A DNA stretch of 35,066 nt, taken from NCBI GenBank assembly GCA_021203745.1, contig JAJQAP010000014.1, forward strand, positions 1-35,066, given 5' to 3'. Below, piece by piece: positions 13,770 through 34,987 of this stretch. Source of the DNA: Coprobacillus sp. (lineage in GTDB: Bacteria; Bacillota_I; Bacilli_A; RFN20; CAG-826). A program made the position numbers and the translations under genes. The notes beneath the pieces were generated by a model. That model saw only the letters and a list, made by a program, of their open reading frames with translations. It was not told the DNA's origin and did not search any database. Position 1 is the first letter of the stretch, and every line of letters starts with the position of its first letter.

Positions 13770-13804
13770 AATAAAAGTTTATGAAAGAAAGGAGAATTTT
13801 TATT

Positions 13805-15544
13805 ATGAAAAAAGGATTAATGACAACACTTGCATGCTTAGCACTTGTCTTCTCTGTTACCGGTTGCGGTTCAAATGAAGGAACAGTCCGTACGATCAGA
13901 GAAGTCTTACAATATGATAATGTTACTGGTCTTTTTGTCCTTGATGGAGAAAAAGTAACCATTAAGAATGCCGTTGTTAATGGTCAACACGGCGATACTT
14001 TAACCATCGCCTTACAAACTACCTACACCACGGTTGAGGTTGTCCAAAAGAAAGCCGATCCTGATATTAAAATCAGAACCACTGTGGATGTCACAGGCAC
14101 TGTTGAAACATATCATGGTCGTTGCCGTATTGTAGACGCCACAGTTACCACAGTGGACGATACAAGACTAGCTGTCTATGTCACAGGTGGGATGACAACA
14201 TTCTCACAATTTGATTCCTTTGGTCGTACAGCCTCAGGTGTCCTTGCTACTGATGTCCCACTTCAAATCGTTTCTTTTAACGGAATAACCGAGTTTAAAG
14301 AAGGTGTAGATTCCATTCTTACCGTCTGTTACCAAGGTGATGAGGATCCAAATGACTATATTGACTTCATCGTCTGGGGTGATACAGATGAGCAAACCCT
14401 TAACTATTTAAATGCCTACTTCTTTGGCAATAACACAGGAAGCGTTGTAACATGGGACGATCCATTTAACTATGCGGATTCTCACTCTGAAATTCCTGCC
14501 ACTTGGACAGGTCTAGGTGAAAAATCCGTTATAAAAGGACTCTATCACTTCTTCTACGATGAAGAACTCGATTCATTTGGTATGGGTCCAATGTTCTACA
14601 TCGATAATATTTGTATACCATCTCTTGAAGGATACGAACTCTATGACGAAGAGAGCGCATTGACAACATTATTTGATAATCTTGCTTCAGCCTATGAATC
14701 TGGTGATGATGGTGCCTCTTACTCCGCTCACATCACATATAAGACCCTTGAAGGTACTGAAATCGATTCTAGCGAGACAACTGGTTGGGTTACTTCTGGT
14801 GATAACCTCTCACCTGAATTTGAAGATTATCTTGCTTTAGGTACCACAGAAACAGAGGATAATTGTTGGGTTAGAGCATGTCCATCACGCTTTGAAGTCT
14901 TATGGAGAGATGCTTCATTAACAAGTGGCGACTACGATTACCTCAATCAAGTATGGGTTGACTGGACCGATGAAGATGAGGAACAATGGACTGATCTATA
15001 TTACTTCTATACTGAAGATGCCTATAATACCTTCATTTCAAGCATTGCTGAAGGTGGATATCAGGGTGAATATACCCCTACGGACAATAATGCGGAATTT
15101 GTGTATACATATGAAGGCACTTGGTATTACTACTACCTTACCCTCTATGATATGGCCTACTACGATACCAGCTTCCATGATAACGGTCAGGTGACAAGAG
15201 ACATCAATGGAGAACAGTTAACCGGTACTCAATTCCTTGTTAACGATTCTAATGTCGTCCATGATCTTTGGGATTGCCTTGCCGGAAATGGATGGGGTAC
15301 TACCTATACCTGGGAAGACGAGGATCTTACTCTTCCAACCCTAGAAGATATCTTCTATGTCAAGGGTGAAGAAGATGGAAACGACTTCTTCCGTGCGACA
15401 TACGCTCGAGATACGGGCTGGTACTATAACACAACCTCACATCCAACTGGTGATGTTGTCTTCTGGGCTTCATTTACCTGGTACTGCGATGTGACAATTG
15501 GTGATAACACCATCGGTAACACTGTTACTGCTGAGAAAGACTAA
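13805..15544 (+). CDS. Lipoprotein A with OB-fold-like N-terminal domain
   Basis: 579 residues from ATG 13805. The frame opens at 13781, but that ATG precedes the Shine-Dalgarno AGAAAGGAG, so 13805 is the start. A signal peptide with lipobox SVTGC (modified Cys at about 21) predicts a lipid-anchored extracellular protein. Residues about 25-115 resemble an OB-fold: TIREVLQYDN, GEKVTIKNAVV, GDTLTIAL, VDVTGTVETYHGRCRIVDATV. The rest is acidic, Tyr- and Trp-rich, with beta-like segments. The neighbouring gene at 15700 is a paralogue; shared blocks include FFG followed by W-x2-PF, then HFFYDEEL and ELYDEES. Function unknown; extracellular ligand binding is inference. Confidence 0.8.
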   Translation: MKKGLMTTLACLALVFSVTGCGSNEGTVRTIREVLQYDNVTGLFVLDGEKVTIKNAVVNGQHGDTLTIALQTTYTTVEVVQKKADPDIKIRTTVDVTGTVETYHGRCRIVDATVTTVDDTRLAVYVTGGMTTFSQFDSFGRTASGVLATDVPLQIVSFNGITEFKEGVDSILTVCYQGDEDPNDYIDFIVWGDTDEQTLNYLNAYFFGNNTGSVVTWDDPFNYADSHSEIPATWTGLGEKSVIKGLYHFFYDEELDSFGMGPMFYIDNICIPSLEGYELYDEESALTTLFDNLASAYESGDDGASYSAHITYKTLEGTEIDSSETTGWVTSGDNLSPEFEDYLALGTTETEDNCWVRACPSRFEVLWRDASLTSGDYDYLNQVWVDWTDEDEEQWTDLYYFYTEDAYNTFISSIAEGGYQGEYTPTDNNAEFVYTYEGTWYYYYLTLYDMAYYDTSFHDNGQVTRDINGEQLTGTQFLVNDSNVVHDLWDCLAGNGWGTTYTWEDEDLTLPTLEDIFYVKGEEDGNDFFRATYARDTGWYYNTTSHPTGDVVFWASFTWYCDVTIGDNTIGNTVTAEKD

Positions 15545-15699: not shown

Positions 15700-17370
15700 A
15701 TGAAAAAGAAATTATTAACCGCTATGGCGGCCCTTGTCCTCGTCCTTGGTGTCGGGTCTACCACATCTTGTGATGGAAATAATGATGCCACCCTTTATAC
15801 AATCAGCGACCTTTTAGTGTATGATCGTTTTACCGAACAGTTTGACCTCACTGGTCAAAAAGTCAGTCTCGAAAACGTCATTGTGACATCAAGTCATGGT
15901 AATTCTATTACCGTTAGTGAATATGATGGAGTTACCGCAATCGAAGTGATTTTAGCTGATAATAGTCCTGAAGTGACAATTGAAACACTCGTCAATGTCA
16001 CAGGCACCATGAATACATATCATGGCAGAGCGCAAATTATCGATGCCACTGTCGAAACCGTCGATACTGACCAACAAAACTTCTACTACACAACAGGATT
16101 TACTCGTGCCGCTGGTTTTGATAACTACGGAAGACTCGATTCTGGTGTTATCGGTGGTGCTAGCCAAAAGACCGATGGCACATTAAGCCCAATTAAACTC
16201 AGATTAATCTCTTATAATGGAGTAAAAGAGTATAAAGAGGGTGAAGATATTATCCTTACCGTGGCTTATCAAGGAACAGATTATGATGATCCTTATAACT
16301 GGCTTGAACTAGTCCTATTTGGTGATAGTGACCAAGCCACAATTGCTTATTACAATGCCTTCTTCTTTGGCACTGATACTGCCGTCTCTTGGAGCTCTCC
16401 ATTTAGCACTGGGCGAGCGGATCGTTCGATTATCCCTGCGGGATGGACTGGTATAGCGGAGGGTGAGTACTTTGCTTGTACGCTCTTACACTTCTTCTAC
16501 GATGAAGAGTTAAACCCAGATTATGGATCAATGTTCTTCCTCGATAATGTTTGCTTACAATATATTGATAGCTTTGAACTTTACGATGAAGAATCTGATT
16601 TAGGTAATGATCTTGCTAGGTTTGAGACTGCCTTTAATGAAGGAAAAGATGTCAGCTATACAAACACTATCACCTATTCCTATAAAGAGGGTGAAACAAT
16701 TACTCTCGAAGAGTATTACTCAATGAATAGCGCTGCTTACAACCGTTATTTAAATAACCTTGAAACAATCGATAGTGATACCTTTACAGTAAAGGCTACG
16801 CAAAACTACTTTGCCTGGGAAGAAATCTACTATTCCGATCTAACTGATGAAGATAGCTTATCTTATCAAGGAGAAGTTCTTTATACCTATACTGATAGCG
16901 ATGGTTTAACTACAACCGCGCAACTAGACTTTGATGATCAAACTACCTTTAAAGCCTTCCTTGAAAGTGGAACTCTTACAAGTTACACCGATTATATTAC
17001 TTATAACTATGATGGATATGTTTGGACTGACCTAGTCTACTCACTCTTTGATCTCTTTAGTTATTACAACTATTCACGTTCATTCCATCAGACTAATACT
17101 TCCTATACATTAAACGATGACGCTTTAATCGATTATCTCTGGGATGTCCTTGATGCCTTCTTCATGGGATACTCTGATGATTATTATGACTATTATGGTT
17201 ATGCCTTTGATCTCAATAGTTTAACTTATAATAGCAACACAAACACATTAAAATCTAATTACGATTTGGGTGGATGGTACTATGCTGATACATACTATAC
17301 CTCTGTCCTATATCTTGATTATGTCGTCGATAACGTATTAGTACTAGACTTTGGGACTGAAGCTGAATAA
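15700..17370 (+). CDS. Lipoprotein B, paralogue of the preceding gene
   Basis: 556 residues. Signal peptide MKKKLLTAMAALVLVLGVGS with lipobox STTSC (Cys about 24; Thr at -3 is atypical). The N-terminal domain repeats the OB-fold-like pattern of lipoprotein A: TISDLLVYDR, GQKVSLENVIV, GNSITVSEYD, VNVTGTMNTYHGRAQIIDATV. The middle shares HFFYDEEL, FLDNVC and ELYDEES with it; the C-terminal third has diverged, with a Tyr-rich YSDDYYDYYGYAF segment. The two arose by tandem duplication but are separately terminated. The nearest Shine-Dalgarno (AAAGGAG, 15676-15682) is 17 nt from ATG across an A-rich spacer, unusually far. Function unknown. Confidence 0.8.
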   Translation: MKKKLLTAMAALVLVLGVGSTTSCDGNNDATLYTISDLLVYDRFTEQFDLTGQKVSLENVIVTSSHGNSITVSEYDGVTAIEVILADNSPEVTIETLVNVTGTMNTYHGRAQIIDATVETVDTDQQNFYYTTGFTRAAGFDNYGRLDSGVIGGASQKTDGTLSPIKLRLISYNGVKEYKEGEDIILTVAYQGTDYDDPYNWLELVLFGDSDQATIAYYNAFFFGTDTAVSWSSPFSTGRADRSIIPAGWTGIAEGEYFACTLLHFFYDEELNPDYGSMFFLDNVCLQYIDSFELYDEESDLGNDLARFETAFNEGKDVSYTNTITYSYKEGETITLEEYYSMNSAAYNRYLNNLETIDSDTFTVKATQNYFAWEEIYYSDLTDEDSLSYQGEVLYTYTDSDGLTTTAQLDFDDQTTFKAFLESGTLTSYTDYITYNYDGYVWTDLVYSLFDLFSYYNYSRSFHQTNTSYTLNDDALIDYLWDVLDAFFMGYSDDYYDYYGYAFDLNSLTYNSNTNTLKSNYDLGGWYYADTYYTSVLYLDYVVDNVLVLDFGTEAE

Positions 17371-17454: not shown

Positions 17455-18891
17455 ATGTACGATGTGCTAATTATTGGAGCAGGAGTTATAGGTGGGTTTA
17501 TTGGCCGAGACCTAGCAAGATATAAACTAAAAGTTTGTGTTTTAGAGAAAAACAACGATGTAACGAGTGGGTCTAGCGCCTCTAACAGCGCCATCATCCA
17601 TTCAGGGTATGACCCAAAAGAAGGTTCTTTAAAACAGAAGTTTAATCTTTTAGGTAATCCCGCTTTTGATAAAGTGTGCGATGAACTAGATGTCCCCTTT
17701 AAGAGAGTGGGCTCTTTAACACTCGCTACAAGTGAAGATGAATTAAATTCTATTAAAGATCTTTATAAACAAGGGCAATCCTATAAAGTAAAGGTATCTT
17801 TACTTAATAGGCAAGAGGTTAAAGCCCTTGAACCAAATATCTCTGATGATGTGCTTGGAGGGTTATACGCTCCTAGTGCCGCTATCATTGATCCTTTCTC
17901 ACTCACTAATCATCTCTTTGAAAACGCAATAGATAATGGTGTTAAACTCTTTTTAAACCAAGAGGTTATAGATATATCTTTAACTTCAAAAGGAAGCTAT
18001 GAAGTAAAAACAAAAGATAACCTATATAGAAGTAAAGTAGTGATAAACTGTGCAGGACTCTATGCAGACAAAGTTGCCGAGATGATTGAAGACGTACCTT
18101 GGAAAATCATTCCAAAGAAGGGTCAATACTATGTCATAGACCACAGCGCAAAACCATTTGTTAATCATATAATATTTCCTACGCCTACGCTTAAAGGAAA
18201 AGGTATCCTTGTTACCCCCACAGCAATGGGAGATTATCTAGTGGGACCAACATCGGATATCGTTGATGATGTTGATGATACCTCCACAAACTCACTTACA
18301 GGAGCATATATTAAAGAGAATGCTTCTAAACTAATAAAAGATATCCCCTTTAAAGACTCTATAAGGGTATTTTCCGGAGTAAGAGCGGCTTCCTCAACAG
18401 GAGACTTTATTATTGAAGGATTACCCACTCATAAAACCTTTATTAATGTCGCAGGTATTGAATCTCCTGGATTGTCTTCTTCTCCAGCGATTGGGGATTA
18501 TGTCGTTAAGAAGCTTGTCTTGCCTTTATTCCCTAATATAAAAGAAAAACCTTACTTTAACCCAAGAGTAAGAAGGTATATAAGGTTTAAAGATTTAACT
18601 GAAAAAGAAAAAGAAGAACTTATAAAGAAAGACCCCAGTTATGGAGAGATAGTCTGCGTTTGTGAACAGATCAGCCTAGGAGAAATACTCGACCTCTTTA
18701 CTAGACCTAATCCCCCAACCTCCATAAAAGCGATAAGAAAGAGACTAGAACTTGGTTTTGGCAAGTGCCAAGGAGGATTTTGCACTCCTAAACTAGTCAA
18801 GATACTCGCCTCTTATTTTAAAGTGGATATGAACGAAATTAATTATGATAACCAGTCTTCTTATATCTTAAAGGAGAAAGTCAAAAAATGA
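17455..18891 (+). CDS. glpA: FAD-dependent glycerol-3-phosphate dehydrogenase-like (GlpA type) with BFD-like [2Fe-2S] domain
   Basis: 478 residues. N-terminal DAO fold with FAD-binding GAGVIGG (8-14) and SGSSASNSAIIHSGYDP, family features of GlpA and the related L-2-hydroxyglutarate oxidases. The C-terminal BFD-like domain has four cysteines in the pattern C401-x-C403 and C438-x4-C443 (VCVCEQ and KCQGGFC), expected to bind [2Fe-2S]. First gene of a three-gene operon with a second flavoprotein and a DUF1667 protein, an arrangement known from Firmicutes and Thermotoga, where the three are thought to form a glycerol-3-phosphate oxidoreductase complex. Another hydroxy-acid substrate cannot be excluded. 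ATGA overlap with the next gene; no glpK or glpF is visible here. Confidence 0.85.
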   Translation: MYDVLIIGAGVIGGFIGRDLARYKLKVCVLEKNNDVTSGSSASNSAIIHSGYDPKEGSLKQKFNLLGNPAFDKVCDELDVPFKRVGSLTLATSEDELNSIKDLYKQGQSYKVKVSLLNRQEVKALEPNISDDVLGGLYAPSAAIIDPFSLTNHLFENAIDNGVKLFLNQEVIDISLTSKGSYEVKTKDNLYRSKVVINCAGLYADKVAEMIEDVPWKIIPKKGQYYVIDHSAKPFVNHIIFPTPTLKGKGILVTPTAMGDYLVGPTSDIVDDVDDTSTNSLTGAYIKENASKLIKDIPFKDSIRVFSGVRAASSTGDFIIEGLPTHKTFINVAGIESPGLSSSPAIGDYVVKKLVLPLFPNIKEKPYFNPRVRRYIRFKDLTEKEKEELIKKDPSYGEIVCVCEQISLGEILDLFTRPNPPTSIKAIRKRLELGFGKCQGGFCTPKLVKILASYFKVDMNEINYDNQSSYILKEKVKK

Positions 18892-20135
18892 TTAAAAAGG
18901 ATTTAGTCATTATTGGGGGAGGCTCCGCAGGTATGGGGGCGGCTCTACAAGCTAATAAACTTGGGATTAAGTCTATTTTAATCATCGAAAAAGAAGACAC
19001 ACTAGGAGGAATCCTCAATCAGTGTATCCATACTGGCTTTGGACTAATTGAGTATAAAGAAGAGTTAACAGGACCTGAGTTTTTAACGAGACTCGAAGAT
19101 AAAGTAAAAGAAGAAGGGATCGAGTATAAACTATCCTCAACTGTCCTTAGTGTCTCAAAGGATAAAGTGGTGACCTACTCTAACAGTAAAGAAGGAGTAA
19201 GAGAAGTGCACGCAAAAGCAATCATCTATGCAGGCGGATGTTATGAAAGAAACGCTGGAGAAATAGAGTTAGGGGGCAAAAGAATATCAGGAATAATAAC
19301 GGCAGGACAAGCCCAGAAGTATTTAAATATCTATGGATACCTAGTAGGGAAAAAGATTGTAATACTAGGAAGTGGCGATATCGGTCTTATTATGGCACGC
19401 CGCTTCACGTTAGAAGGGGCAAAAGTTATCTGTGTTGCAGAGCTATCCCCATACTGCAACGGACTTAACCGAAATGTCGTTCAATGCTTAAATGACTTTG
19501 ATATACCACTTTACTTAAGCACCACAGTAAAAGAGGTTAAAGGGAAAGACCATGTTGAAAGTGTAACACTTGTTAGTGTCGATTCTAAAGGCACACCAAT
19601 TGAGGGAACTGAAAGAGAAATAGAGTGCGATACACTCTGCCTCTCAGTCGGACTAGTCCCATATCTTGGTCCACTTAATAATCTTGATTTGGTTAAAGAT
19701 AAGGCAGGACGTATCGCTGTAAATCAGTACAAAGAGTCATCTTTACCCGGTCTATTTATATGTGGAAACGCTCTCCATGTTCATGATATTGTGGACTATG
19801 TTGTGGAGGAAGCAAGAGAAGCGGCAAAAGGGGCAAAAGCATACCTAGATAACGAGCTTTCAAGTCAGACTGAAACAAAGATTACCTACGGCTCTAATAT
19901 TAACTATGTTGTCCCGCAGTCTGTTGCCACCCCAATCCTTACTGACTTTACCCTTAAGTTTAGGGTGAGATCTAATCTAAAAGATGTCTCAGTTTATATA
20001 TACAATAATGATACTTTAATTAGTAAAACTAATTATACAGCGCTTATCCCTTCCCAAATGGTGATGATTAACCTAAAAAAAGATAAGTTAGAAGAACCCA
20101 TTAACCTATCTATAAAAGTCGAGGAAAGAAAATGA
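18888..20135 (+). CDS. NAD(P)/FAD-dependent oxidoreductase, partner of GlpA-like protein
   Basis: 415 residues. Two dinucleotide folds: FAD-binding IIGGGSAGMGAA (8-19) and a second, NAD-type, VILGSGDIGLIMARR (about 157-171). The family-specific GGILNQCIHTGFGL (about 40-53) and GLFICGNALHVHDIVD near the C-terminus are seen. It belongs to the pyridine-nucleotide-disulfide oxidoreductase superfamily but shows no CxxxxC redox disulfide, as in GlpA-associated and opine/glycine-oxidase subunit proteins. It probably carries electrons between the GlpA-like subunit and NAD or another acceptor (inference). Overlaps both neighbours by ATGA, indicating translational coupling. Confidence 0.88.
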   Translation: MIKKDLVIIGGGSAGMGAALQANKLGIKSILIIEKEDTLGGILNQCIHTGFGLIEYKEELTGPEFLTRLEDKVKEEGIEYKLSSTVLSVSKDKVVTYSNSKEGVREVHAKAIIYAGGCYERNAGEIELGGKRISGIITAGQAQKYLNIYGYLVGKKIVILGSGDIGLIMARRFTLEGAKVICVAELSPYCNGLNRNVVQCLNDFDIPLYLSTTVKEVKGKDHVESVTLVSVDSKGTPIEGTEREIECDTLCLSVGLVPYLGPLNNLDLVKDKAGRIAVNQYKESSLPGLFICGNALHVHDIVDYVVEEAREAAKGAKAYLDNELSSQTETKITYGSNINYVVPQSVATPILTDFTLKFRVRSNLKDVSVYIYNNDTLISKTNYTALIPSQMVMINLKKDKLEEPINLSIKVEERK

Positions 20136-20473
20136 AAGAGTTAGTGTGTATTTGCTGCCCAAGAGGATGTAACCTTACTATCGATGAGGATGGTAAAGTA
20201 AGTGGTAACTTCTGCCCTAAAGGGAAAGAGTACGCTCTTGAAGAGACTAGTGCCCCTAAGCGCACCCTTACGACTTTTATTCGTGTGCAAAATAGAAAAG
20301 ACACCATGCTATCAGTAAAAACAAGTGGGGCTATCCCCAAAGAGAAGATGGGGGAGTTAATGGCATATATCAACGTCTTAAAAGTCAAGGCGCCTATCCA
20401 AATTGGGGATGTTATTGTCACTGATATATTAGGACTTGGGGTTAACCTAGTGGCCACAAAAAATATTTTATAA
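20132..20473 (+). CDS. DUF1667 cysteine-rich protein
   Basis: 113 residues. Cysteines at 6, 8, 9 and 13 (CICCPRGC) and at 29 (GNFCPKGKEYALEE) could hold a metal or Fe-S centre. The CPxGC opening, FCPKGKEYALEE and late PIQIGDVIVTDILGLGVNLVATKN are the DUF1667 pattern. In this family the gene regularly follows a GlpA-like and a NAD/FAD oxidoreductase, as here (ATGA overlap), suggesting an electron-transfer subunit. The stop codon lies within an AT-only hairpin. Confidence 0.88.
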   Translation: MKELVCICCPRGCNLTIDEDGKVSGNFCPKGKEYALEETSAPKRTLTTFIRVQNRKDTMLSVKTSGAIPKEKMGELMAYINVLKVKAPIQIGDVIVTDILGLGVNLVATKNIL

Positions 20474-20591: not shown

Positions 20592-22289
20592 ATGGCCGAT
20601 AGTATTAAAGTGGTCGCTTTAGGCGGGCTTGATGAAAGTGGCAGAGATTGTTATGTCGTCGAAATAAACGATGACATCTTTGTCTTTGATTGTGGTCTTT
20701 CTTTCCCTGATAAATCCACCCCTGGAATTGACTATTTTATTCCTAATGACGATTACCTAGTCGAAAATAAAGATCGTTTAAAAGCCTATATCTTAACCCA
20801 TGGGCACGATGAAAATATCGGTGGTATTCTCTACCTTTATAACCAAGCCCCCGCCCCGATATACTGCACAAACGCGACAAAAACCATTTTACTGGCGGAG
20901 GCGGAGTTTACCCATGTTAAAGTGCCTAAGTTTAACTTTGTGATTATTGAACCTAGTTCCACTCAAGTAATCGCTGGTCATACATTCCAGTTTTTCCAAA
21001 CCGCGCATAACGCTCCTAAATCCTTTGGGGTGGCTCTTGAAACCGACAGGGGTAATATCGTTTATACCTCTGATTTTATCGTGGACTACACTGTGGATGA
21101 TCCTGACTACTACTTTGATTTAAATAAACTCTCTTCTATCGCGGAGAAAGGTACGCTTCTTTTAATGACTGAATCAAAAGGGGCTAATGGTCATGGATAC
21201 TGCTCCCCTCATCATAAACTAACCTCAGTTATTGAAAAGTATTTTACTAATAACGATAATCGTATATTTATCGCCCTTTTCTATCAAAACCTTTTTAGGA
21301 TTACCGAAGTCTTTAATCTCTGTAAAACCCATCATAAAAAGATCTATCCTTATGACGCTTTTACAAGGAGATTCCTCGATATTCTCTTTAAAGAAAATTC
21401 CACAATGCCAATAAAAAAAGAAGACCTTCTCTCTAAAGAAGATCTCTTAAGAGCAAGACAAAGAGATGTTGTAGTCTTAATGCTAGGACAAGGAGACGAA
21501 CTATATAGCTCAATTATCTCTTTAGCAAAGCATGAAAACGAAGATAAGAGAGTGGTCCTCACCAAAGATGATACCTTTATTGTCGCCGCTATCCCAAACC
21601 CTTCCTTTGAATCAATTGCCACAAGAACCATCGATTACCTTTATAGAGCGGGTTGTGAAGTTGTTTGGCCCGCCAAAAAGAAAGTCATCTCTATGCACGC
21701 TGAACAAGATGATTTAAAGCTTATGCTCTCTTTACTTAGACCTAAGTACTATTTACCAGTAAGAGGCTCATATGTCAATTTAATGCATAACGCTAAACTT
21801 GCTCTTTCTATGGGGATAGGACTTAACCACTCTAACGTCTTTATTCTAGATAACGGCACTCAACTAGTCTTTAACGAAGATAAAGTTCAACTTCTTTCAA
21901 ATATCAACAACAGAATCCATGCTTGGCCCACGATGGTAGATGGACTAGGTTATATTAAAGAAGGAGAAGAATTAGTGGATGATAGAAAGAAGCTATCAGT
22001 AGATGGTGTTACCATTTTAGCGGCAACGGTATCTAAATCTAAGCACAAAATCATCGCTGGTCCTGATTGTCAGATGAGGGGTTTTGTCTTTGCAAAAGAC
22101 GCCGAACCAATCTTAAAGAGTATCTCAAATATCTTCGTTGAGGAGATCAATAACATTTTAGTGCTTCCAAACTTTAACTTTGATTTTGAACCCTACTACG
22201 AAGAGATAGAGGAGCGTATTAAGAAGTGGATTAGAAGAGAAAATGGTCGTGAACCCCTTGTGATGCTTGATGTCATCGTTATTGACTAA
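20592..22289 (+). CDS. rnjB: RNase J family protein with degenerate metal site (RNase J2-like)
   Basis: 565 residues: N-terminal beta-lactamase/beta-CASP core (from ALGGLDESGRDCYVVE) and the C-terminal J domain. Active RNase J has HGHxDH, H142, D164, SGHA and PVHGE. Here the first motif is HGHDEN (70-75), so the Asp and last His are replaced by Glu and Asn; H139 and D161 remain; SMHA (H379) remains; PVHGE is PVRGS (R401 at the position of metal ligand H390 in Bacillus J1, consistent spacing). At least two ligand histidines are thus lost. Bacillus RNase J2 is similarly substituted and works in complex with J1, and rnjB there lies near spoIIIE, as this gene lies next to ftsK. I infer a J2-like structural partner; an active J1 should exist elsewhere. 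Confidence 0.85.
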   Translation: MADSIKVVALGGLDESGRDCYVVEINDDIFVFDCGLSFPDKSTPGIDYFIPNDDYLVENKDRLKAYILTHGHDENIGGILYLYNQAPAPIYCTNATKTILLAEAEFTHVKVPKFNFVIIEPSSTQVIAGHTFQFFQTAHNAPKSFGVALETDRGNIVYTSDFIVDYTVDDPDYYFDLNKLSSIAEKGTLLLMTESKGANGHGYCSPHHKLTSVIEKYFTNNDNRIFIALFYQNLFRITEVFNLCKTHHKKIYPYDAFTRRFLDILFKENSTMPIKKEDLLSKEDLLRARQRDVVVLMLGQGDELYSSIISLAKHENEDKRVVLTKDDTFIVAAIPNPSFESIATRTIDYLYRAGCEVVWPAKKKVISMHAEQDDLKLMLSLLRPKYYLPVRGSYVNLMHNAKLALSMGIGLNHSNVFILDNGTQLVFNEDKVQLLSNINNRIHAWPTMVDGLGYIKEGEELVDDRKKLSVDGVTILAATVSKSKHKIIAGPDCQMRGFVFAKDAEPILKSISNIFVEEINNILVLPNFNFDFEPYYEEIEERIKKWIRRENGREPLVMLDVIVID

Positions 22290-22357: not shown

Positions 22358-25042
22358 ATGCCAGAAAATAATGTTAACTCCTATAAAAGAGGTCTCTATG
22401 TCGCGATAGGTGTTTTTTTGTGGCTTCTTGCGATGGTTTTAATTATTAATATTGGACCTGTTGCTAAAGTTTTATCCTTTATATTCACCTATACCTTTGG
22501 GATTTTAAGTTATGTTATTTATGTTTTGATGCTTGTCGTTGGTTTCTTTTTAATCTTTTTCCAGGATAAGGTAAAGGTTAGCTATCCTTCTAGAGTGGTG
22601 GCCTCTATTGTTTTATTTTTAGGACTCGACATAATTGTTACCGATATATATGTCAGTGTGCTAGATACATCTAGTCTAATTACACTATCAAACTTTACCC
22701 AGTATTTCTCTGATTCTTGCTTTTCTAGTGTAAAGTATATAAGAACCACTGAATTTATTAATCTCTTTAGTGTGGATACCCCATTTGCAGGTGGTTACCT
22801 TGGTTATTTTATCGTTGCCCTTTTAACTAATGTCGGTGGTTATGTTGTATCCTCCCTTCTAATAGTACTCGGAGTGCTTCTCTATTTTGTTCCTAACTTA
22901 AGAAAACTCATAAGACGGAATAGTGAAGTGTCCCCTGAGGGAGAAGATATAGAAATCGACGATAAATCCTTAAAGAAAGAAAAGACCAAGCGTGTCAGGG
23001 TGTCTAACGTCAACGTTGTAAAAGAGGCCAGTGAGGTAGAAGAAGAAGAGATAAGCTATATTCCCACTCAAGGAGAAGGAGTCTTACTTAAACACGCTTA
23101 CTACGATGATGGATCTGCACCTCTCCACGAACAAAGAGGAGGTTTTAGCACCGCTGATGTGCCTTTTATGGATAAAAAGTCTCTCCCTGTTTTAAGCGAA
23201 GAGATAGATTCCCCTAAAGAAATAGAACCAGAAATCTTAAAACCTCAATATAAGGAGCCTGAACCAGTTAGAGAGCAGATTTATGTTGATACCACCTCAA
23301 AAAAAGAAGAGCCAATTAATCTAGAAGAGGAGCAAGACCTATTTGTCTCTTATGATGATGAAGAATTTGAACAAGAGGATATAGAAGAAGAAAAGATTGC
23401 CGCAGTAGAATCTCTTTCTAACTTTAAAGAGAGTGAACCTGAACCTATACAAGAGGCCCCCAATAACGTCTTTATCCCTTCTAGCCAAAAAGAAGAAGAA
23501 GTACCCGTTGTTAATGAAGAGCCAAAGAATGAACTTGAAACACCCGCAAAAAAGAGAATCAATTATATCCCACCTTCTTTAGACTTGTTAAAAGATCGTC
23601 TTTCCTCGTTCGCCGATTCAGGGAATATCCAGATGTCAGAATCGCGCGCCCATATAATCGATGAGAAGATGAAAGAGTTTAGAACGGACGCTCATGTAGC
23701 TTCCTATGTAATAGGACCAACAGTTACAAGATTTAACATTGCGTATGGTCAAAATGTGTCCTACACGAAAGTGGAAAACCTCATTGATGATCTCTCTATT
23801 GCCCTAAATGGGGTCTCCTGTCGTTTTGTTAAGACAGTACTAGGCACTCCTTACTCAGGAATAGAAATCCCAAATGAAAACAAAACTACAGTGGGCTTTA
23901 AAGAAATACTCAAAAAACTCCCTGACCCTAAAGAGCATCCTCTTGCCGTGGGATTTGGAGTTAATGTTGATGGACAAACTATTTGGGCTGATTATGATCA
24001 GTTCCCCCACGCCATTATTGCTGGGACCACTGGTAGTGGTAAAACCGTCTTTGTGGAGTCAATCATTGCCACCCTTATCATGCGTAACTCCCCAGATGAT
24101 GTCAAAATTATGATTGTGGATCCTAAGTTTGTCGATTTAACGAAGTTTGATGGTATCCCACATTTACTCTGTCCAATAATCGCGGATTACTCTCAGGTTA
24201 ATGTTGCCTTTAAGAAGTTAATCGAGGAGATGAATAGAAGATATGAAGTCTTTAGAAATGCGAGAGTGGGGGATATTAAAACCTTTAATAAATACGCGAG
24301 AGCAAATAATTTAGAAACAATGCCCTCAATCTTCGTCTTTATCGATGAGTTTGCAGATCTTGTTGGAGAGATAAAAGAGATCACTAATCTCTGTCAAAGA
24401 CTCGCGCAAAAATCAAGAGCCGCGGGTATATATCTATGTATTGCTACGCAACGTCCTGATAAAAATGTTGTCACCGGTAACTTAAAAGCTAATTTACCGA
24501 CCCATATTGCTTTAAGAACATCTAATGTGACAGATTCTATTACAATACTTGGAGAGAAAGGTGCTAACTACTTACAAGGAAAAGGCGATATGCTCGTTCA
24601 AACTCCTGATGTTAACCAAGGTGACTCGACAAGACTTCAAGGTTGTTTCCTTGATGATGATGAGATATTTGGAATAGTAAACTATCTAAAAGAAAACTAT
24701 AAACCTGATTATGATCCTAACTTCCTCGATTTAGTGGACCATTCGGAAGAGGCCGCTGACGAAGTTGTTAAAGCGGGAGTGTATGGTTCCTCTAACGATT
24801 TAGACGCTGATGGTAAATACAGTGCCATTAAAGAATGGGTCATGGGACTAGACTATGTCAGTATGAGTAGAATCCAGGTGGAGTGGTCAATAGGATTCTC
24901 TCGCGCAAGACGCATCTTTAACCAGCTTGTCAGTGAAGGAATCATTGAGCAAACAAGTGCGACCTCAAATAAAGGGAGTAAGGTTTTAATCCATGAAGAA
25001 GAAGTCGATTATGAAGTAGATAGTGAGGAGGTACTATACTAA
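22358..25042 (+). CDS. ftsK: DNA translocase FtsK/SpoIIIE
   Basis: ATP-driven pump that clears chromosomal DNA from the division septum. 894 residues in the standard order: four or so N-terminal membrane helices (about 12-190), a long acidic linker (about 195-400), then the alpha/beta/RecA motor with Walker A GTTGSGKT (556-563) and Walker B VFIDEFADL (D663, E664), and the C-terminal gamma winged helix (about 830-880, GFSRARRIFNQLVSEGIIE) that reads orienting sequences. FtsK versus SpoIIIE naming is arbitrary here since sporulation genes are not seen. First gene of a long run with acpS (1-base overlap), pullulanase, plsC, a small membrane gene and an HflX-like gene without visible terminators. 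Confidence 0.95.
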   Translation: MPENNVNSYKRGLYVAIGVFLWLLAMVLIINIGPVAKVLSFIFTYTFGILSYVIYVLMLVVGFFLIFFQDKVKVSYPSRVVASIVLFLGLDIIVTDIYVSVLDTSSLITLSNFTQYFSDSCFSSVKYIRTTEFINLFSVDTPFAGGYLGYFIVALLTNVGGYVVSSLLIVLGVLLYFVPNLRKLIRRNSEVSPEGEDIEIDDKSLKKEKTKRVRVSNVNVVKEASEVEEEEISYIPTQGEGVLLKHAYYDDGSAPLHEQRGGFSTADVPFMDKKSLPVLSEEIDSPKEIEPEILKPQYKEPEPVREQIYVDTTSKKEEPINLEEEQDLFVSYDDEEFEQEDIEEEKIAAVESLSNFKESEPEPIQEAPNNVFIPSSQKEEEVPVVNEEPKNELETPAKKRINYIPPSLDLLKDRLSSFADSGNIQMSESRAHIIDEKMKEFRTDAHVASYVIGPTVTRFNIAYGQNVSYTKVENLIDDLSIALNGVSCRFVKTVLGTPYSGIEIPNENKTTVGFKEILKKLPDPKEHPLAVGFGVNVDGQTIWADYDQFPHAIIAGTTGSGKTVFVESIIATLIMRNSPDDVKIMIVDPKFVDLTKFDGIPHLLCPIIADYSQVNVAFKKLIEEMNRRYEVFRNARVGDIKTFNKYARANNLETMPSIFVFIDEFADLVGEIKEITNLCQRLAQKSRAAGIYLCIATQRPDKNVVTGNLKANLPTHIALRTSNVTDSITILGEKGANYLQGKGDMLVQTPDVNQGDSTRLQGCFLDDDEIFGIVNYLKENYKPDYDPNFLDLVDHSEEAADEVVKAGVYGSSNDLDADGKYSAIKEWVMGLDYVSMSRIQVEWSIGFSRARRIFNQLVSEGIIEQTSATSNKGSKVLIHEEEVDYEVDSEEVLY

Positions 25043-30333: not shown

Positions 30334-30657
30334 ATGATTAAAAAAAATCACACACAACTAACTAGTGATGTAAAAGAAATTGCCACTCTCTATTTCTATT
30401 ATCAGTATAAGTTAAAGCACTCTCATGGACTTGGATCCACCAACTATGAAGAGTATCAGCAGACAGTGGATCGTATCGATTTAGCTTTCTCCTATTTAGA
30501 GGAGGATGAAAAAGACATCATTAATAACGAATTCTTTTATCAATCCTCACCAGATTGGTGGGAACTTACTTACTCAAAAGCGGAGTTTAATCGTAAAAAG
30601 GATTTAGCGATGAGTAAGTTTATTAACTATTTTGTTTCAGGAGGTATGGCATGTTAA
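30334..30657 (+). CDS. Small helical protein, possibly sigma-70 region 4/ArpU-like
   Basis: 107 residues, all helical in character. Residues about 45-100 (VDRIDLAFSYLEEDEKDIINNEFFY...WWELTYSKAEFNRKKDLAMSKFINYF) loosely follow the pattern of ArpU/RinA-type sigma region 4 proteins: a 'L.eeEr.II...yf' helix, a Trp-x-Ile/Leu turn, then a serine-led recognition helix and a basic C-terminal helix. Strong Shine-Dalgarno AGGAGG. First gene of the Tad-like operon; the next ATG is inside its end (7-nt overlap). It could be the operon's own regulator, but the HTH assignment is weak and a structural role is possible. Confidence 0.4.
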   Translation: MIKKNHTQLTSDVKEIATLYFYYQYKLKHSHGLGSTNYEEYQQTVDRIDLAFSYLEEDEKDIINNEFFYQSSPDWWELTYSKAEFNRKKDLAMSKFINYFVSGGMAC

Positions 30658-31829
30658 AACAAGTACTTGAAACTGCGCTTATTATTGTCTTAGCGGATTC
30701 TGCTTTTAGCCCTGATCTTCCAGGTATCGACGGTTCTTTACCCACGATTACTGATTATAACTTTTCTATGGAGGTCGCCGCGGAGACCGATTTTGGAACG
30801 TATGACTACGACTTTGATAAAACCGAGTTTACTCTCCCTATCAGTATAGGCTCAGGATATAACGACTGGACCTTTACATGCACCGCTGGAGTGTACGCCC
30901 CAAAAGATGACGGAACATATGATACTTATCCCGATAATGGAGACATGGGTACATATACTTTCACTGTTGGCAAGGATGGTAATGAAATTATGCATGGGAA
31001 AACCGAAACCTATGAGGCAAAATTTACTGTCGGTTTCTTTAAAAACAAAGATTATGAGAGAGAAATTTGGGAACACCTTTATCTCGTCTTTTTTATCGAT
31101 GGAACCGCTCCAAGCGACAAAGTAATTCCTGATGATACTCCAACATCATATACCTTCTATTCCGAGTTTATACTAAGAGGATTTGGAAAGTATAAAGTTA
31201 AAGCGGGCACTAAAGAATTCTATCCAATCGATGACCATATTGTTTTTGGAGGCACTAGAGAAAATGGTAATGTCACCGAAACAGTGGACTTTTCAAGCAC
31301 AAAAGATGCGATATGTGAAGAAAAGTATCTCAGCATAAACGATTCATTTGATATTGCCTACACCGCAACAGATAGAGAATATTCGGCTAGTCCTAACATA
31401 ATCGATGCTTGGATTTATGTCGTTGATCCTAATAACTACTTTGAGTATATGCATTCAGCTTCTGTCGATAACTTTGCTATCTCTCTAGATCACGAAAAGA
31501 AAAACTCTAATGATTATATAGATAAAGATGGAAATACCGTGCAAGTTACTGGTTCTTTCTGGGTCGGGGGAGAAACATATTGGGTTGACCCAAGTACCCT
31601 AACTATGTCTTTAAAACAGGAGACTCGTTTTTACGAGGAAACCACTAATTTCTACTTTAAAGTGGGATATTACGACTTAATTAAAGAAAACTGTGAGTTT
31701 TATTTTGTGGCAAAAGACGTCGGATACAATGAAGCCACTTACATCATACCGCTCAATTTCCTTGGTGATCATGATTACTATGGATCTTGCCTAGATAGCG
31801 ATTACTGCATGCACTACGGGAGAGGCTAA
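30651..31829 (+). CDS. Large beta-rich protein of Tad-like operon
   Basis: 392 residues. The N-terminus MLKQVLETALIIVLADSAF is a short hydrophobic stretch with an embedded Glu (residue 7), reminiscent of a type IV pilin-like N-terminus but with no clear GxxxxE cleavage site. The rest is beta-rich, acidic and Tyr-rich, with several immunoglobulin-like looking strands (TYTFTVGKDGNEI, FYSEFILRGFGKYKVKAG, TNFYFKVGYYDL). Near the end CLDSDYC has two Cys. Unrecognised; from its position between a regulator-like gene and pseudopilin genes it may be an exported adhesin or minor pilin of the apparatus (inference). Confidence 0.6.
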   Translation: MLKQVLETALIIVLADSAFSPDLPGIDGSLPTITDYNFSMEVAAETDFGTYDYDFDKTEFTLPISIGSGYNDWTFTCTAGVYAPKDDGTYDTYPDNGDMGTYTFTVGKDGNEIMHGKTETYEAKFTVGFFKNKDYEREIWEHLYLVFFIDGTAPSDKVIPDDTPTSYTFYSEFILRGFGKYKVKAGTKEFYPIDDHIVFGGTRENGNVTETVDFSSTKDAICEEKYLSINDSFDIAYTATDREYSASPNIIDAWIYVVDPNNYFEYMHSASVDNFAISLDHEKKNSNDYIDKDGNTVQVTGSFWVGGETYWVDPSTLTMSLKQETRFYEETTNFYFKVGYYDLIKENCEFYFVAKDVGYNEATYIIPLNFLGDHDYYGSCLDSDYCMHYGRG

Positions 31830-31831
31830 AA

Positions 31832-32206
31832 ATGGCAAATATGTTTCTCTGCATCATGTTCGCTTGTATGTTTGCGCAGTATTTCTATATCAATTTAAAT
31901 GTGCAAATACTCAACAATGCTGTAGAGAATCTCCCTGTTGCACTTGTTTCTTCCTGTGTGGATCTTAGGTTTGATTACCCATTTTTTGATCAAACGAAAT
32001 TAGAAGAGTGTGTGGGTGAATACTATGATTACTCATTAAAGGTGGTCCATGAGGTTTCTTATAGTTATTACACAAGGACAGGAGAAATTGACCTTCCTGA
32101 TGAAAATATGGCAATGGGGGTAGATATTACCTTAACGAGTAGTTTCTCAACATTCTATACATATTCAAAGACAATGTTTTATGAAATCGTAGAGGGCTTA
32201 GCATGA
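31832..32206 (+). CDS. TadE/pseudopilin-like protein 1
   Basis: 124 residues. One N-terminal membrane helix (about 3-24), then a soluble part of about 95 residues with a few Cys and a beta-like C-terminus (MGVDITLTSSFSTFYTYSKT). Size, single helix at the start and location directly before the CpaF/TadA ATPase match TadE-like pseudopilins of Tad systems; sequence alone is not diagnostic. The start is 2 nt after the preceding stop, and the next gene overlaps its end by 4 nt (ATGA). Confidence 0.5.
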   Translation: MANMFLCIMFACMFAQYFYINLNVQILNNAVENLPVALVSSCVDLRFDYPFFDQTKLEECVGEYYDYSLKVVHEVSYSYYTRTGEIDLPDENMAMGVDITLTSSFSTFYTYSKTMFYEIVEGLA

Positions 32207-33267
32207 CGGATAATAAAGCGCTTGGTTATATTGAAGGTTCTTTCTTAAGGCCGATATTAAATCTAAAAGGAGTGACGGATATCTCCTTTAACGGCCACGA
32301 ACTCTTCTATATGGATAATAACAGTGGAAGGATAAAATCGGATATCCAACTTACAAGCGATGAGGCTACAGACTTTATAAGACAAATTGCTAATTTATCG
32401 AAACAGCAATTCTCTTATTCAGAACCAATTCTCGATGTCACTGTGGATCTATATAGAATAAGTGCGATTCATCATTCAATTGCCCTCTACGATGGAGAGG
32501 AGGTGACGACCTTCTCAATAAGAATCGCCAGAAAGAACCTTCAAATTGATGATAGTAGTGATTTCTTTACTAAACCTTGTCGTGATTTAATACTACACGC
32601 GCTAGAAAAGAAAATCCCTATTGTTATAGGAGGAGAAACATCATCAGGAAAAACAGAACTGCAAAAGTATCTTCTCTCTAACCTTAAACAAAGCGATAGG
32701 GCAATAGTCATTGATCAAGTGGCAGAACTAGACTACTGCCACGAATACACAAGGTGCGATCTTACCATTTGGCGGTCTAACCAAGAGAGAAAGAAGGTAA
32801 CAACAGATTACCTATTAAGTGTCTCCTTAAGAAATAATCCTGACTGGATAATTGTCGCGGAGACTCGAGGGGAAGAAGTAATCAATATCATCAATTCAGT
32901 AATGACAGGACACTCAATTATTACGACAATACACGCAACAGATGCCTACTCAATTCCAGAAAAGATTGCTCTTATGTCGATGATGAGTGATAGGAAACTA
33001 GATTATGAGAGTGTCCTAAAAGATGTCTATTACCACCTACCCCTATATGTATATGTCCAAAGGGATTTTGAAGGGGGAAGAATTAAAAGATATATCAGCT
33101 CAATAATGTACGTATTACCAAATGGGGAAAAGTACTTACTCTATGATAAAGAAAGGAACAGTCCATATCTAAAAATGAATCAAAATAATCAACTTTTAAA
33201 AGATATTACACCAAAAGACATTCATATTTACGATGCTTTTGTGGAGGAAAATCATGAAAAAAAATAA
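32203..33267 (+). CDS. tadA: CpaF/TadA-type secretion ATPase
   Basis: Cytoplasmic ATPase powering Tad/Flp pilus assembly or secretion. 354 residues. Walker A GETSSGKT (144-151), Asp box IVIDQVAEL, Walker B region NNPDWIIVAETRGEE and His box GHSIITTIHATDA, in the right order. The N-terminal domain is short (family ~400-450), missing the FHA-like extension. GETSSGKT replaces the commoner GGTGSGKT. Flanked by TadB- and TadC-like genes, which confirms the Tad type rather than a type IV secretion VirB11 ATPase. Confidence 0.9.
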   Translation: MTDNKALGYIEGSFLRPILNLKGVTDISFNGHELFYMDNNSGRIKSDIQLTSDEATDFIRQIANLSKQQFSYSEPILDVTVDLYRISAIHHSIALYDGEEVTTFSIRIARKNLQIDDSSDFFTKPCRDLILHALEKKIPIVIGGETSSGKTELQKYLLSNLKQSDRAIVIDQVAELDYCHEYTRCDLTIWRSNQERKKVTTDYLLSVSLRNNPDWIIVAETRGEEVINIINSVMTGHSIITTIHATDAYSIPEKIALMSMMSDRKLDYESVLKDVYYHLPLYVYVQRDFEGGRIKRYISSIMYVLPNGEKYLLYDKERNSPYLKMNQNNQLLKDITPKDIHIYDAFVEENHEKK

Positions 33268-33967
33268 AAATAATAATTATGTTACATACATTTTAGTTTC
33301 TCTTCTTATTGGAATTTTATTCTATCTTTCTACCTCAATGCTTCTTGTCTCTTTAGCGGTCTTTCTAGTCTTCTTTCTTTATCTTATTCTTCGTGTGGAA
33401 CGAGTCTACAAGAAGACTCAAAAGAGAAATCAGAGAGTGGACTTTGCTTATAATCTCATCAATAACACTATTTCTTCAATCAGTGTCTATGGAAATATCA
33501 ATGAAGCAGTGGATCACGCCCTAACTACTTATGATATTTCGAAAATTAAAGAGATAGGAAATATCTCAAATATGGAAGGGCTAGATAAACTTCAATATCT
33601 ATCATCTTACTTCTCCCTTCCAATCTATGATGCATTCTTAAACATCCTTGAACTATATCAAGAAAATGGTGGAAACATCCTCGATATGAGTGAGCATCTT
33701 CTTTCAGAAACAAGACAGATTCAAAACAATCTCTTATCCACGAATACCCTTTATAGGAGTAAAGCCACAAACGTGGTGATGCTTTGGATCTTTGCCCTTA
33801 TCGTTCCTGTTTTTATCCGTTTTGCCCTTGTGGATTTCTATTCATCATTGATTAGTTCCGCAATATATGTCGCAGGCATTGTATTGACCTATGCCCTTGC
33901 CCTTATCACCATTGAAATATTCTGTAACAAATTTTCAAATCAGAGAGTTAAAGGAGTGGATTTATGA
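33254..33967 (+). CDS. tadB: TadB-like inner-membrane platform protein
   Basis: 237 residues from ATG 33254, chosen because GGAGG lies 7 nt upstream; the frame opens at 33233. Two N-terminal membrane helices (about 9-50), a cytoplasmic T2SF-like domain (about 60-165, NLINNTISSISVYGNINEAVDHAL...FLNILELYQENGGNILDMSEHLL) and two C-terminal helices (about 170-225). Overlaps tadA by 14 nt and tadC by 4 nt. Confidence 0.75.
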   Translation: MKKNKNNNYVTYILVSLLIGILFYLSTSMLLVSLAVFLVFFLYLILRVERVYKKTQKRNQRVDFAYNLINNTISSISVYGNINEAVDHALTTYDISKIKEIGNISNMEGLDKLQYLSSYFSLPIYDAFLNILELYQENGGNILDMSEHLLSETRQIQNNLLSTNTLYRSKATNVVMLWIFALIVPVFIRFALVDFYSSLISSAIYVAGIVLTYALALITIEIFCNKFSNQRVKGVDL

Positions 33968-34647
33968 GTAAAAAGGAAAAGAAAGAGAAAAATACTACCG
34001 AAACAAAATCTAGGTCTTCCTCAAGTAAAAATACCATTTTAATCCTTGTTTGTAATATCGCCGTCATCCTTGTAGGAGCGCTCCTCGTATATTTCTATTT
34101 CTCATACATGATTATTGTAATTTTCGTTGTTGTTCTCCTTTTGATGGACTATTACTTCTACTCCCAACGCATTAATAAGAAGAAGAGGGAGCAGGAGCAA
34201 AGGGAAGAAGAGTTTATCTCACTCATTACATATTTTAAAATCTACCTCACTAATGGAATCAATGTTTATCAGTCATTACAGCTTGCCTCTTCATTCCTCT
34301 CGGAATGGATGAAAGAACAAGTTGACCAGCTCCTACAAGAAATTGATAACGATAAAACAATAAACCCATACTTAAACTTTGCTTCCCTTTTTAGTCTTCA
34401 TCATTATGAGGATGTAATGACCGCAATATATCAGCTCGTGGATCAAGGAGGTGACCCAGCTTATATGAACAAGTTTGTTTATACCTTTGAAAAGATAGAA
34501 GAAGAAGATAACAAATATCGTCACGATAAAGACGAAAGAGGCATGAATATTGTCAGTGCCCTCCCAATTGTTGGATGTTGTCTATTTACCATCTGTCTTA
34601 CCTTTGGAATTATATCGATGTTAGGAGATTTCATGGATGTCCTCTAG
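33964..34647 (+). CDS. tadC: TadC-like inner-membrane platform protein
   Basis: 227 residues: basic, Ser-rich N-terminus (KKEKKEKNTTETKSRSSSSKN), two helices (about 23-65), a T2SF-like domain (about 80-190, SLITYFKIYLTNGINVYQSLQLASS) and a final helix (about 198-220). Position after tadB and the paired architecture identify it as the second platform component. The next gene overlaps its end by 11 nt. Confidence 0.75.
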   Translation: MSKKEKKEKNTTETKSRSSSSKNTILILVCNIAVILVGALLVYFYFSYMIIVIFVVVLLLMDYYFYSQRINKKKREQEQREEEFISLITYFKIYLTNGINVYQSLQLASSFLSEWMKEQVDQLLQEIDNDKTINPYLNFASLFSLHHYEDVMTAIYQLVDQGGDPAYMNKFVYTFEKIEEEDNKYRHDKDERGMNIVSALPIVGCCLFTICLTFGIISMLGDFMDVL

Positions 34648-34987
34648 TCTTGGTTTAATCATCTCGATGCTATTTGTCGCTATCACCTTCATGTTTGGAG
34701 GAGACCTCCTCACCCTCCAAGCCGCTTTTACTAGTCTAGAAAACGCCGCAAATGACATTGCTTACTTTGTCGCATACTATTTCGATTTCTCTGATGAATT
34801 TGTCGCTTATCTCGAAGAAATGTATACCGTCAAAATAACAAGTGACACTGGCATATATGGTGGTGCCTATGGCGATATGGTTGATTTCTATGTCACCAAA
34901 ACAGTGGACCACTTATTCATCATGGGTACAGAGTATACCCTAACAGTAGAAAGGACAGCGATTCTAGGTTCTTATGGTTTGTTTTAA
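34637..34987 (+). CDS. TadE/pseudopilin-like protein 2
   Basis: 116 residues. N-terminal membrane helix (about 4-22, LGLIISMLFVAITFMFGGD) and a soluble, partly beta domain ending GTEYTLTVERTAILGSYGLF. ATG 34637 lies within the tadC end (11-nt overlap), without room for a strong Shine-Dalgarno. The layout parallels the pseudopilin-like gene at 31832. The pilin assignment is from context and topology only. Confidence 0.45.
   Translation: MSSSLGLIISMLFVAITFMFGGDLLTLQAAFTSLENAANDIAYFVAYYFDFSDEFVAYLEEMYTVKITSDTGIYGGAYGDMVDFYVTKTVDHLFIMGTEYTLTVERTAILGSYGLF

Follow-up and report, generated by a model that had tools for sequence, protein, structure and literature searches.

The gene at positions 20592 to 22289 on the forward strand of the window, the whole 35,066-nucleotide stretch analysed here from a Coprobacillus sp. 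assembly, belongs to the RNase J2 clade and is an RNase J2. It is, with high probability, the orthologue of rnjB, encoding a protein that would bind at most one metal ion, would have weak or no RNA-hydrolysing activity and would act mainly as a partner subunit of RNase J1. The host belongs to the Bacilli, is uncultured and has a small genome; its group includes genomes in which TGA is a sense codon, as in the Mollicutes.

The open reading frame starts with ATG and, with its stop codon counted in the interval, encodes 565 amino acids without an internal stop. The protein has a complete RNase J architecture, in which the metallo-beta-lactamase (Lactamase_B, PF00753), beta-CASP (RNase_J_b_CASP, PF22505) and C-terminal (RNase_J_C, PF17770) domains each score above their Pfam cut-offs. 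The best NCBIfam model is the RNase J family model TIGR00649, whose score of 360 bits lies below the curated cut-off of 400, and the family assignment is therefore based on domains, tree and fold instead. In its AlphaFold model (mean pLDDT 89.2), the protein has chain A of the RNJ2-RNJ1 model 9a5v as top PDB match, followed by other RNase Js. The possibility of a pseudogene was rejected, because the frame is open and dN/dS is about 0.06 for the closest pair of J2 genes (G001 and G002; dN 0.06 versus dS 1.04); the gene is under purifying selection and is not decaying. Sequencing error or chance was likewise rejected as a source of the unusual motifs described below, since relatives carry the same substitutions: HxHDEN and PVRG[ST] are common to the window protein and its counterparts in the closest genomes (66–69% protein identity).

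In Bacillus subtilis J1, metal 1 is coordinated by H74, H76, H142 and D164, and metal 2 by D78, H79, D164 and H390 (PMC5383250). The corresponding motifs of the window protein were located by script, starting at residues 70 (HGH, within LTHGHDENIGG), 137 (TAH), 160 (SDF), 367 (SMH) and 389 (PVRG). By alignment, the metal-1 equivalents H70, H72, H139 and D161 are all intact, and the metal-2 equivalents are E74, N75, D161 and R391, with the bridging D161 as sole survivor. The HGHDEN motif (codons 70–75, 20799..20816, forward strand, as are all features given here) thus keeps both histidines of metal 1 and has Glu and Asn in place of the Asp and His of metal 2. H139 (21006..21008) and D161 (21072..21074) align with H142 and D164 of B. 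subtilis J1. At codons 391–393 (21762..21770), R-G-S replaces H-G-E, so that the metal-2 ligand H390 becomes R391 and the glutamate becomes S393. A further change affects codons 365–369 (21684..21698), where VISMH replaces the HTSGH of J1; H364 is lost (V365), and S366 and H368 are kept (S367 and H369). In the J1 of Staphylococcus epidermidis, in its own numbering, H364, S366 and H368 recognise the 5' phosphate (PMC7864078). With metal-1 ligands intact and metal-2 ligands changed, the loss is limited to metal site 2. The intact HxHxDH and PxHGE motifs of an RNase J1 with two metal sites are absent, HGHDEN and PVRGS standing in their place, and the window protein shows the RNase J2 pattern of kept metal-1 and non-conserved metal-2 ligands. 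The preliminary description of this sequence had proposed the change from HGHxDH to HGHDEN at residues 70–75, which the motif script confirmed, and that from PVHGE to PVRGS, which is also real, although the arginine is R391 and not, ten residues higher, R401. It was similarly right that H139, D161 and a third histidine persist, but the latter is H369 and not H379, and its assertion that metal ligands had been lost through more than one change holds for metal site 2 but not for metal 1, which keeps all four.

The rooted tree places the window protein inside a clade of 110 J2 sequences (support 0.998) that includes B. velezensis RnjB, Cytobacillus, Listeria and the S. epidermidis J2, making it monophyletic with characterised J2s (B. 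velezensis RnjB and S. epidermidis J2) and bearing out the RNase J2 identity first proposed. The outgroups of this tree are actinobacterial, clostridial and fusobacterial sequences taken from large plasmid-collection records, several of them chromosome-like. The J1s carrying a histidine at the position of residue 391 (H391) lie outside the J2 clade, and the window protein does not group with them; within the clade, H391 is missing in every member except Listeria. Before outgroups were included, a single branch with support of 1.0 parted 107 sequences without H391 from 97 sequences with it, with zero misplaced.

The assembly of the window genome is incomplete (960,803 bases in 92 contigs, 81% complete) and contains one full-length RNase J, which could be taken to mean that the window protein is the only or main RNase J of its genome, with altered ligands, and not a J2. 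A second RNase J with an intact motif, for which the preliminary description had advised a search, was nevertheless found in the same genome. Its first 103 codons, which read HGHEDH, lie at the end of contig 11 (C11:25641-25949) and are 90% identical to the J1 of one same-genus genome. The window protein is hence not the sole RNase J, a possibility that this J1 fragment refutes, and the fragment, the tree position and the presence of J1 in all three same-genus genomes together leave the only-or-main reading with a negligible probability. The fragment is located downstream of a gene that, judged by its sequence, is probably the peptide deformylase gene def, as rnjA is in Bacillus. The remainder of this J1 falls outside the contig, and that the gene is intact is deduced from its relatives. 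At least two RNase J matches were obtained in 53 of the 58 genomes searched, the window genome included, and most relatives carry both paralogues, so that J2 coexists with an intact-motif J1 both in the window genome, as the HGHEDH fragment, and in its genus. The window genome also encodes RNase Y.

Directly 3' of the J2 gene lies ftsK/spoIIIE (22358..25042, 894 amino acids; Pfam FtsK_SpoIIIE, FtsK_alpha and FtsK_gamma), and 39 loci have a co-oriented ftsK downstream of J2. The synteny with ftsK/spoIIIE invoked at the outset does match rnjB, but it has no diagnostic value, because an RNase J also lies directly upstream of ftsK in Collinsella, an actinobacterium and hence a member of a different phylum (L251). 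Identification of J2 from synteny alone was rejected on these grounds, and the distribution of the arrangement hints that RNase J and ftsK may have been neighbours before J1 and J2 diverged, and that their order is not a J2 signature. On the other side of the gene, the region directly upstream (17455-20473) encodes a type 2 glycerol-3-phosphate oxidase-like protein, a pyridine nucleotide-disulphide oxidoreductase and a DUF1667 protein, the last two of which precede J2 in 13–15 related loci. Further upstream, two adjacent large open reading frames (13781-15544, 587 amino acids, and 15700-17370, 556 amino acids) have zero Pfam matches. Downstream of ftsK, in the region 30334-34987, a run of short open reading frames surrounds a type II/IV secretion ATPase (32203-33267) and may represent an operon for competence or pili.

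Across the J2 copies of the window's order, the two metal sites have had different fates. H75 and H391 are each present in none of 52 sequences, and the metal-1 ligands are retained in 47–49 of them (90–94%). Of the 74 J1 columns that are near-invariant (97% or more conserved), 25 are at least 90% conserved in these J2s, and they include the four metal-1 ligands and H369. Among the 110 J2s, the HxH motif and H139 tend to be kept or lost together: 102 sequences have all of these histidines, 5 have none and 3 are mixed. Because the sequences share ancestry, such counts do not represent independent events; on the tree, 3–5 events are needed for the loss of each of H70, H72 and H139. The frequent preservation of the metal-1 site among J2s suggests that some function remains to it. 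Within the class, J2s with H75 belong mainly to one group, in which residue 391 tends to be Ile, and another group lacks H75 and tends to have Lys or Arg there; the branches parting the two groups are weakly supported. An order of decay is thereby suggested, in which H391 is gone throughout the sampled class, H75 in most copies and the metal-1 site in a handful. Least ordinary are the near-constancy of Lys/Arg at position 391 and the existence of a few J2s that also lack the metal-1 histidines.

The latter copies are L027, L050 and L053 (from genomes G029, G009 and G039) and L191 and L193 (from G072 and G115); in them, HGH and H139 have given way to other residues, for example KGK and A, and the frames are open over their full length, in L191 and L193 when TGA is read as Trp. 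All five are candidate complete pseudoenzymes, as judged from their sequences, and provide natural tests of RNase J2 function without catalysis. Two other copies depart from the usual gene structure. In L072 (G022:C1:368400-370300), the J2 gene is split into three pieces that occupy different frames and include one TGA, which points to a pseudogene or a faulty assembly, and the J1 of the same relative (L095) is open; in L109 (G045:C3:97000-98950), the frame spans 609 amino acids, versus the usual 550–580, in two match pieces with a gap between them, which suggests an insertion near residues 85–128.

The window protein might itself be a pure pseudoenzyme, with no catalytic metal and no cleavage, its histidines serving folding or persisting as relics. 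Such a reading falls within the J2 assignment, differing from the favoured one in the state of site 1, and we regard it as possible though rather unlikely. Metal 2 and H364 are indeed lost in the window protein, the copies L027, L050 and L053 of the same order, which lack the metal-1 histidines too, indicate that the gene can be maintained once its metal sites are gone, and a Staphylococcus aureus J2 with the H76A/H78A substitutions grows as wild type, its active site being apparently dispensable in vivo under the tested conditions (PMC3937233). Against this, the joint retention of HxH and H139 is as expected for a functioning metal site, the S. epidermidis J2 binds Mn despite a comparable loss (PMC7864078), and the Enterococcus faecalis J2 is a weak exonuclease whose activity is abolished by H69A and H71A (PMC5383250).

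A different role for the surviving site would follow if R391 replaced metal 2 and stabilised phosphate, leaving a one-metal nuclease with an activity of its own, perhaps endonucleolytic. The conserved metal-1 ligands, the Lys or Arg found at position 391 in 43 of the 52 J2s of the order, and the prevalence of Ile at this position in those J2s of the class that keep H75 would fit such a mechanism; H364, however, is lost, and the Lys/Arg and Ile states track separate tree groups, so that the association is confounded with ancestry. We hold this to be very improbable for the window protein, and give equally little credence to its extension to the order, in which J2 would be a one-metal enzyme with a conserved Lys/Arg 391 substituting for the second metal.

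Under the favoured reading of the window protein as a J2 partner subunit of J1, any single metal ion would be bound at site 1, J1 would perform 5'-to-3' degradation within a J1-J2 complex, and J2 would modulate stability, substrate choice or localisation. Complexes of J1 and J2 with altered activity are established for Bacillus, as is binding between the two proteins for Enterococcus (PMC5383250, PMC6759994), where those of E. faecalis associate at 74 nM (PMC5383250); in S. aureus, deletion of J2 harms growth (PMC3937233). J2 proteins of this kind are not simply dead, as the E. faecalis and S. epidermidis J2s illustrate (PMC5383250, PMC7864078). The metal-1 site that most J2s still have and the S. 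mutans J2, reported as a potent nuclease with a motif nearer the J1 consensus (PMC6759994), suggest some caution towards a role as mere partner. In the literature, we found no work on RNase J2 evolution in the Lactobacillales or on RNase J pseudoenzymes in Mycoplasma, and none linking RNase J to RF39, a guessed lineage name. The division of labour between J1 and J2, known so far mainly from work on Bacillus, staphylococci, enterococci and streptococci, would with the present gene extend to uncultured small-genome bacteria near the Mollicutes.

The window J2 is a known kind of protein, and loss of one of the two metal sites is already known for the J2s of Bacillus and Staphylococcus. The initial comparison with a non-catalytic Bacillus J2 partner stands as regards J2, which the tree supports, but not as regards a plainly non-catalytic protein, given the activity of the E. 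faecalis and S. epidermidis J2s. B. velezensis RnjB (L253) shares with the window protein its clade, the HGHDEN motif (LTHGHDENIGG) and the loss of the metal-2 histidine (its own motif being PVNGE), and its gene also lies upstream of ftsK and is paired with a J1 near def. The two proteins are about 32% identical over 509 residues, and B. velezensis J2 has HVSGH and the Glu of PVNGE where the window protein has VISMH and PVRGS; the B. velezensis rnjB-ftsK interval, moreover, holds a ClpP family protease and a YlzJ-like gene, both absent between the two genes here. The best PDB sequence match of the window protein is the S. epidermidis J2 (PDB 6k6w), which has also lost site 2 and whose structure contains a single Mn, with endonuclease activity reported for the protein (PMC7864078). 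This J2 carries HGHEHA, E166 and PVQGE, with the consequence that His80 and Glu166 supply part of its metal coordination, whereas the window protein keeps D161 and has E74 and N75. Lastly, B. subtilis J1 (PDB 3zq4) shares fold, domain order and metal-1 ligands with the window protein, but has both metal sites and a full HTSGH motif; two of its metal-2 ligands, and the histidine that opens HTSGH, are missing from the window protein.
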